Assembly (NCBI GenBank): GCA_022827345.1
Contig: JAJDTB010000007.1
Span: 62,001-126,000, forward strand
Origin: Gemmatimonadota bacterium
GTDB lineage: Bacteria > Gemmatimonadota > Gemmatimonadetes > Longimicrobiales > Gaopeijiaceae
Length of the DNA: 64,000 nucleotides
Reading direction: 5' to 3'
Shown here: piece after piece, positions 10,746 to 46,823 of the stretch
How positions within the stretch are numbered: the stretch's first letter is position 1
Layout: each line of letters starts with the position of its first letter
The notes under the pieces: generated by a model
Database searches by the model: none
The model's input: only the letters and a program-made list of their open reading frames with translations
Told to the model about the DNA's origin: nothing
Program-made: the position numbers and the translations under genes

Positions 10746-10783
10746 TGTAATGCACACATTACCTTTGTAAAGTAAACATTACA
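10746..10783. repeat. Paired 18-bp dyad element, copy 1
   Basis: TGTAATGCACACATTACC tt TGTAAAGTAAACATTACA; intergenic between convergent genes. Confidence 0.7.
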
Positions 10784-36506: not shown

Positions 36507-37100
36507 CTATCGCCCCCCTCTCCGCCGCGCTGCCTGATCCTCACCCCGCACCTCCAGCACGTCCCCCACGGTCCGCAGCCCCTCGATCACGTTCTGGATG
36601 TGCTCGGCGCGTGGCAGTCCGATCAGGTCGATGCCGCGCTGTACCGCGTCGCGGTGCACGCCCCGCGCGAACGCCTTGTCCTTCATCTTCTTGGCCACCG
36701 ACTTGGGCTTCAGGTCGTCGATGCCGTTGGGCCGCACCAGGCAGCAGGCGTACACGAGGCCGCTCAGTTCGTCGCAGCCGTAGAGGACCCGGTCGAGTTG
36801 CGACTCGGGGACGACATCGGTGCGGTCCGGGTAGGCGTGGGCCTCGATCGCGTGGACGACCTCTTCCGGATAGCCGAGTTCGCGCAGGCGGGCGACGCCG
36901 ATGTGCGGATGGTCGTCGGGGTGCTTCTCCCAGTCCAGGTCGTGCAGCAGACCGGCCAGGCCCCACAGCTCTTCGTCCTCGCCCATCATGCGGGCGTAGT
37001 GCCGGACGGCGGCCTCGACGGCGTACATGTGCTTTCTCAGCGCCGGGCTCGCGACCCATTCTTCGAGGAGCGCGACTGCGTCGGATCGGGTGGGCATCAT
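36507..37100 (-). CDS. HD domain protein (predicted phosphohydrolase)
   Basis: LAGLLHDLDWEKHPDDHPHIGVARLRELGYPEEVVHAIEAHA; start MMPTRSDA at 37100. Confidence 0.85.
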   Translation of the reverse strand: MMPTRSDAVALLEEWVASPALRKHMYAVEAAVRHYARMMGEDEELWGLAGLLHDLDWEKHPDDHPHIGVARLRELGYPEEVVHAIEAHAYPDRTDVVPESQLDRVLYGCDELSGLVYACCLVRPNGIDDLKPKSVAKKMKDKAFARGVHRDAVQRGIDLIGLPRAEHIQNVIEGLRTVGDVLEVRGEDQAARRRGGR

Positions 37101-37127
37101 CGGTCCTTGGGATGTTGATGGGTGAAT

Positions 37128-37166
37128 TGTAATGTCAAGATTACAAAATGACAACTAAAGATTACA
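37128..37166. repeat. Paired 18-bp dyad element, copy 2
   Basis: TGTAATGTCAAGATTACA aaa TGACAACTAAAGATTACA; intergenic. Confidence 0.7.
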
Positions 37167-37199
37167 TTTGCGGATGGTTGTGCAAACGAATCGACCGAC

Positions 37200-37880
37200 T
37201 CACACCGAACTCGAAGGACACAGGTGAGAGAGGGCGCACCGGTTGCAGCGCGGCTTGCGGGCGTTGCACACCTGCCGCCCATGATAGATGAGCAGATGGG
37301 CGAGCATCGTCCAGACTTCGCGCGGGAAGATCTTCATCAGGTCCTGCTCGATCTTGACGGGCGAGGACTCCTTCGTGAAGGCCATGCGGTTCGAGAGTCG
37401 CTTCACGTGCGTGTCGACGACCACGCCTTCGTCGATCCCGAAGGCGTTGCCCAGGATGACGTTGGCAGTCTTGCGGCCGATCCCCGGGAGCGCGGACAGC
37501 TCTTTCATGTTGCGCGGGAGTTCACCGCCGTGGTCCTCGATGAGCGCCGTGGCCATGCCGATCAGGTTGCGGGTCTTGTTGCGGAAGAAGCCGGTCGAGC
37601 GGATGACGTCCTCCAGCTGCTCGGGGATCGCGGCCGACAGCGACTCGGGGTCCGGGTATCGGCGGAAGAGCTCGGGCGTGACCATGTTGACGCGGACATC
37701 GGTGCACTGCGCCGAGAGGACGGTCGCGACGGCCAGTTCGTAGGGGGAGGCATGACGGAGGGCGCACTCGGCGTCGGGGTACTCGGCCAGCAGGATGTCG
37801 TAGATCTCGGCGGCGCGGGCCTTGCGGGCCTTCAGCGATTCGCGGCGGCCGGGCTTGCGGGGACGCTTGGTGGGAGTCAT
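37200..37880 (-). CDS. nth: Endonuclease III
   Basis: HhH LPGIGRKTANVILGNAFG, VDTHVKRLSNR, terminal CNARKPRCNRCALSHLC iron-sulfur cluster. Confidence 0.96.
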   Translation of the reverse strand: MTPTKRPRKPGRRESLKARKARAAEIYDILLAEYPDAECALRHASPYELAVATVLSAQCTDVRVNMVTPELFRRYPDPESLSAAIPEQLEDVIRSTGFFRNKTRNLIGMATALIEDHGGELPRNMKELSALPGIGRKTANVILGNAFGIDEGVVVDTHVKRLSNRMAFTKESSPVKIEQDLMKIFPREVWTMLAHLLIYHGRQVCNARKPRCNRCALSHLCPSSSV

Positions 37881-46784: not shown

Positions 46785-46823
46785 TGTAAAGTGAATATTA
46801 CATAATGTAATGTCTACTTTACA
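46785..46823. repeat. Paired 18-bp dyad element, copy 3
   Basis: TGTAAAGTGAATATTACA taa TGTAATGTCTACTTTACA; intergenic between convergent genes, abutting the stop codon at 46824. Confidence 0.7.

Follow-up and report, generated by a model that had tools for sequence, protein, structure and literature searches.

TyrR boxes are dyads of the form TGTAAA-N6-TTTACA that occur as pairs of a strong and a weak box. The ARG boxes of E. coli are paired as two 18-bp boxes with 3 bp between them (PMC6640053). The Correia/NEMIS repeats of Neisseria exist in 107- and 155-bp forms; in vitro, IHF binds to a 50-bp insert found in the longer form (PMC2229807). A review of MITEs in bacteria, published in 2007, proposed that remnants of mobile repeats which keep only their protein-binding motif should be sought (PMC2229807).

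Three AT-rich spots in the 64,000-nucleotide stretch of DNA analysed here (the window) belong to a family of 39-bp paired-dyad elements, present in about 100 copies in a sponge-associated Gemmatimonadota genome. Each 18-bp dyad has the consensus TGTAAWG-N4-CWTTACA and two dyads make up the element (Table 1). The window holds ten matches to the dyad at ≤2 mismatches, that is, five distinct sites counted on both strands, against an expectation of 0.17 and a maximum of 2 in 100 dinucleotide shuffles. A first-pass annotation had located two 18-mers at 10746 and 10766, 20 bp apart from start to start, between the convergent genes for a TonB receptor and a phosphodiester glycosidase; both sites and the orientation of the gap are confirmed. 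The annotation extended this arrangement to 37128 and 46785, which is accurate for the second position, where a full pair is found (46785/46806), and only in part for the first, where one strong site is accompanied by a degenerate partner. Similarly, the convergent setting applies to elements 1 and 3 and not to element 2, which lies in a tandem gap, and the 20-bp spacing of element 1 is exceptional in a family whose norm is 21 bp. The genes around the three elements are diverse in function. No Rfam match was found in the window, and the suggestion that the pair serves an unannotated small RNA receives no support.

Table 1. Paired dyads of the window with their neighbouring genes, and aligned loci of the 172-bp repeat
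Feature	Position	Strand	Sequence or remark
Element 1, left neighbour	ends 10717	+	TonB receptor (PF07715/PF00593)
Element 1, dyad A	10746..10763	+	TGTAATGCACACATTACC; G009 ortholog TGTAATGTCAATATTACA
Element 1, dyad B	10766..10783	+	TGTAAAGTAAACATTACA; spacer 2 bp, 3 bp in the G009 ortholog
Element 1, right neighbour	from 10823	-	phosphodiester glycosidase (PF09992 NAGPA)
Element 2, strong dyad	37128..37145	+	TGTAATGTCAAGATTACA
Element 2, degenerate partner dyad	37149..37166	+	TGACAACTAAAGATTACA; spacer 3 bp
Element 2, neighbours		both -	HD-domain gene and endonuclease III-like gene; tandem gap
Element 3, dyad A	46785..46802	+	TGTAAAGTGAATATTACA; G009 ortholog CGTAATGCAAACATTACA
Element 3, dyad B	46806..46823	+	TGTAATGTCTACTTTACA; spacer 3 bp
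Element 3, neighbours			amidohydrolase and endonuclease/exonuclease/phosphatase (Exo_endo_phos) genes; convergent gap
Aligned 172-bp repeat loci	L198:1498-1680; L199:1498-1679; L218:1498-1678		and 16 further loci

In the assembly to which the window belongs (G000, 4.79 Mb), the dyad pattern has 168 forward and 173 reverse matches at ≤1 mismatch, where the reversed-pattern control has 2 in either direction, and the pattern of the 39-bp pair has 97 forward matches against none. The motif is far above chance genome-wide, chance frequency being the outcome that the first-pass annotation had held to speak against it. Nearly all sites are paired at 21 bp in the 1.24 Mb of sequence examined. In a set of 77 pairs, 75 have this spacing and two have 20 bp, and the partners of strong sites have a mean of 2-4 mismatches, compared with 8.8 at displaced positions. 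The motif is carried by 22 of 23 genomes of the genus, with 19-360 matches each; other genera have 0-3, the same as the control. With zero mismatches, matches among 399 genomes of the phylum fall in the window's genus only. Across GTDB genomes, the exact pair pattern occurs mainly in Gemmatimonadota MAGs, together with single matches in four unrelated taxa that are taken for chance. A phage origin of the element was considered and rejected, since exact patterns of the 39-bp element and of the arm described below have no match in IMG/VR. The genome richest in matches (G010, 360) is small, at 2.8 Mb, and ArgR was not detected in it.

The dyads change slowly at the positions that define them. In eight orthologous cores from one pair of species (G000 and G009, its closest relative, ~94% identity), both members being recognisable as cores, differences were counted at 9 of 192 fixed dyad positions (5%), 4 of 32 W positions, 16 of the 64 central dyad bases, four per dyad (25%), 3 of 21 spacer positions and 226 of 568 positions of the 30-bp flanks, gaps included (40%); for fixed against central positions p=1.5e-5. 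Slow change at fixed positions beside fast change of centres and flanks is the signature of a selected, putative protein-binding site. The spacer of element 1 differs in length between the two species, with both dyads kept. The W6/W13 combinations (TA 47, AA 30, TT 24, AT 13) are independent (p=0.85). Since the two positions vary independently, what is constrained is recognition of the double strand, not a hairpin.

Where the gap was available in G009, eight of ten G000 cores are kept there. The annotation had made its case depend on pairs being conserved in the syntenic gaps of relatives, which does not hold in most congeners: the gap of element 1 has a core in G000 and G009 only (2 of 22 genomes), and that of element 2 (window 36507-37880) in six of 22 (G000, G009, G010, G011, G017 and G022). 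Distant congeners have few core positions in common. The flanking genes of 20 G021 cores share none with 66 G000 flank proteins, and a wider comparison finds a few common gaps. The cores in the element 2 gap have flanks that differ between species, and repeat sequence is visible beside the one in G010, so that repeated insertion is possible and this gap may be a recurrent insertion site.

When the core is masked, the flanks of separate copies still align in register, both in G000 and in G010, and the alignment comprises a left arm, a right arm and outer inverted repeats of two types. Arm profiles recover copies of the repeat with and without the core. Among 97 arm-bearing copies examined, those with two arms fall into two length classes, ~249 bp where the core is present and ~172 bp where it is missing. 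The two consensus sequences are set apart by one ~76-bp insert, and in our reading a short sequence resembling GCTTCGCTC is directly duplicated on its two sides. The paired dyad is the core of this optional module within a previously undescribed imperfect-palindrome intergenic repeat; an intergenic repeat family was among the options listed by the annotation, and this option is borne out. The 172-bp form is found in 23 of 23 genomes of the genus, with weaker matches in eight other genera. Identity is 86% among nineteen copies drawn from 19 species of the genus, which fold as a long imperfect hairpin of 53 pairs, 15 of which show compensatory changes. The repeat has no match in Rfam, and the titles and abstracts listed by a literature search on Gemmatimonad insertion sequences and MITEs do not describe such repeats.

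The repeat is short and non-coding, occurs in many dispersed copies, and has terminal inverted repeats, either GCAGYCCGTGGA...TCCACGGRCTGC or, in the second type, AGTGTCCTGTCCCGG...CCGGGACGGGACACT. CTAG or TAG, a possible target-site duplication, is frequent at both of its ends; no filled/empty site pairs were found between G000 and G009. A search of the stretches examined for terminal inverted repeat pairs 60-4000 bp apart returned the short repeat and no clear parent transposon. The repeat is accordingly called MITE-like only. In G021, among the copies listed, the 172-bp form stands in head-to-tail tandem arrays of five (C1:3738486-3739346) and three units (C1:4079352-4079871), with 1-3 bp between units. 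In G000, comparison of the copies at C13:55482-55730 and C51:161231-161477 with that at C9:35432-35680 reveals that the same inner arms occur with outer inverted repeats of two kinds unrelated to each other (AGTGTCCTGTCCCGG type and GGCAGTCCGTGGA type), and upstream of C51:86497 a different palindrome, ATCCTTGCAATATCGG...CCGATATTGCAAGGAT, replaces the left outer stem of one copy. In G010, a drifted core type, TGTAATCCATGGTTTACA, has been amplified together with the left arm.

Arms cannot be recognised around most cores of G000 (25 of a set of 31 elements), and the three in the window are among these. In four genomes, the 25-bp flanks of such bare cores are more like module flanks than displaced controls are (p between 2e-4 and 3e-6, the controls being unmatched for local AT), which suggests that bare cores are decayed copies of the arm-bearing repeat. 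A proposal that second sites are better in bare cores than in those with arms was dropped, the tendency being seen only in G009 and reversed in G010.

Relative to gaps of at least 45 bp, and with genes called by a simple codon-usage method, 145 intergenic elements from several genomes are over-represented in convergent gaps (34 elements, OR 1.9, p=0.004) and under-represented in divergent ones (21 elements, OR 0.59, p=0.03). Both p-values are somewhat optimistic because G000/G009 orthologs were counted separately. In 36 copies the repeat adjoins, with its left end, the 3' end of a gene on the same strand; the reverse arrangement is seen in 10 (p=1.6e-4). Because the repeat prefers gene 3' ends, the convergent location of the core is probably a by-product of that preference. 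Cores lie at no fixed distance from gene starts.

These observations are likely to reflect a protein site that was dispersed by a repeat and then retained by selection. The 39-bp element would be a paired operator-like site whose two dyads, 21 bp or two helical turns apart from centre to centre, lie on the same face of the DNA, and a putative dimeric sequence-specific protein would most likely bind the pair as two cooperating dimers. The site would have been multiplied as the optional internal module of the imperfect-palindrome repeat, which measures 249 bp when it carries the module and 172 bp when it does not, and which would settle preferentially at gene 3' ends. The arms would decay afterwards, and purifying selection would keep the paired site, leaving bare cores such as those in the window. 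The role of the protein would probably be architectural, or that of a roadblock or boundary behind genes, and not one at a classical promoter operator; the architectural or boundary role, taken by itself, is a serious possibility to which we give somewhat less than an even chance. The annotation had also proposed a site for a nucleoid or partition protein. Taken broadly, as any site bound by a protein, this is compatible with the conserved dyad positions and independently varying half-sites. No clustering suggests a partition centre: in the complete 4.47-Mb chromosome of G021, the sites listed range from 11 kb to 4.40 Mb.

Could the core instead serve the repeat itself? As a site for a transposase or accessory factor needed for transposition, with bare cores as its slowest-decaying remnants, it would explain why the core sits in a mobile-looking repeat, why it has been amplified in G010 and why copy number is very uneven among genomes. 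The swing from 19 to 360 matches across core-bearing genomes is as compatible with selfish spread as with a conserved system. However, repeats without a core are common, full-length and widespread, being found even in the core-free G008 and, in diverged form, in other genera, and bare cores keep their fixed positions but not their centres, unlike neutral remnants. A purely selfish repeat is for these reasons considered unlikely. G008 itself carries the 172-bp repeat and has no core even with a degenerate 39-bp pattern, and a tree built from two proteins places it inside the genus, with a support of 0.993 for the larger clade and of 0.01 at the node of G008 itself. A genome inside the genus with the repeat and without the core is as expected if the binder had been lost, and with it the selection on its sites; loss of the putative binder is the simplest reading, although the tree is weak.

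The geometry of the pair equals that of known operators such as the E. coli ARG boxes (PMC6640053), and the element lies 5' of the gene in 132 of 290 flanking-gene relations, both of which would suit the operators of a conventional transcription-factor regulon. Such a regulon is improbable, however, given the enrichment of convergent and depletion of divergent gaps, the variable distance to gene starts, and the fact that the genes beside the window elements are of diverse function and mostly not common to the species. Binding by the arginine repressor ArgR, for which the identical 18+3+18 layout in E. coli speaks (PMC6640053), has very little probability: PF01316 occurs in 55 of the 61 relatives, of which the ones outside the genus mostly lack the motif, it was not detected in G010 with its 360 matches, and the argR locus of G000 (C9:292210) has no core nearby. 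ArgR was rejected as the binder on this mismatch between its presence across genomes and the distribution of the motif. A TyrR-type HTH_50 protein (PF18024) was also rejected, having no match in the core-bearing G021 and G003 and mostly weak, sub-threshold matches elsewhere. It is, finally, highly unlikely that the dyads act in RNA, as single-strand hairpins or terminators; each could form a short stem and many copies lie behind stop codons, but W6 and W13 show no covariation, with mismatched combinations in 54 of 114, and the stems would be AT-rich within a genome of 68% GC.

It is conceivable, though rather doubtful, that a genus-specific Gemmatimonadota DNA-binding protein organises the chromosome or insulates transcription units via 100 or more paired sites behind genes, these sites having been supplied by the repeat and then domesticated, with their absence from G008 marking loss of the protein. 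Identification of the binder would let the family serve as a natural experiment in the genome-wide installation of protein sites by a mobile repeat, within a lineage that is mainly known through metagenomes. The 172-bp repeat also provides a handle for genome comparison in the phylum and merits a description of its own.

Among known systems, the dyad closely resembles the TyrR box, likewise 18 bp long. With the ARG-box operators of ArgR/AhrC the family shares two 18-bp imperfect palindromes 3 bp apart, at the 21-bp spacing of nearly all pairs; it differs in that ArgR, undetected in G010 and present in many motif-free genomes, is not distributed as the motif is. The dyad sequence, moreover, is one that we take to differ from the ARG box consensus. 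ERIC- and REP-type palindromes are similar in being high-copy imperfect intergenic palindromes, structured as single strands and biased towards gene 3' ends, whereas here the paired dyads do not themselves form a structural hairpin and the repeat matches no Rfam family. The closest analogue is Correia/NEMIS, also a short palindrome repeated in intergenic DNA, whose shorter and longer forms are distinguished by an inserted segment with a host-protein site (PMC2229807); this is a likeness in layout and not membership. In contrast to Correia, the insert is ~76 bp long with two 18-bp dyads, its protein site is predicted from constraint, the site persists as bare cores after loss of the arms, and the phylum is a different one. 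The dyad is presumably not an IHF consensus. With its arm-bearing copies, its arm-less copies in which the site is conserved and a species that has the repeat without the site, the family looks like the kind of remnant that the 2007 review proposed to seek.
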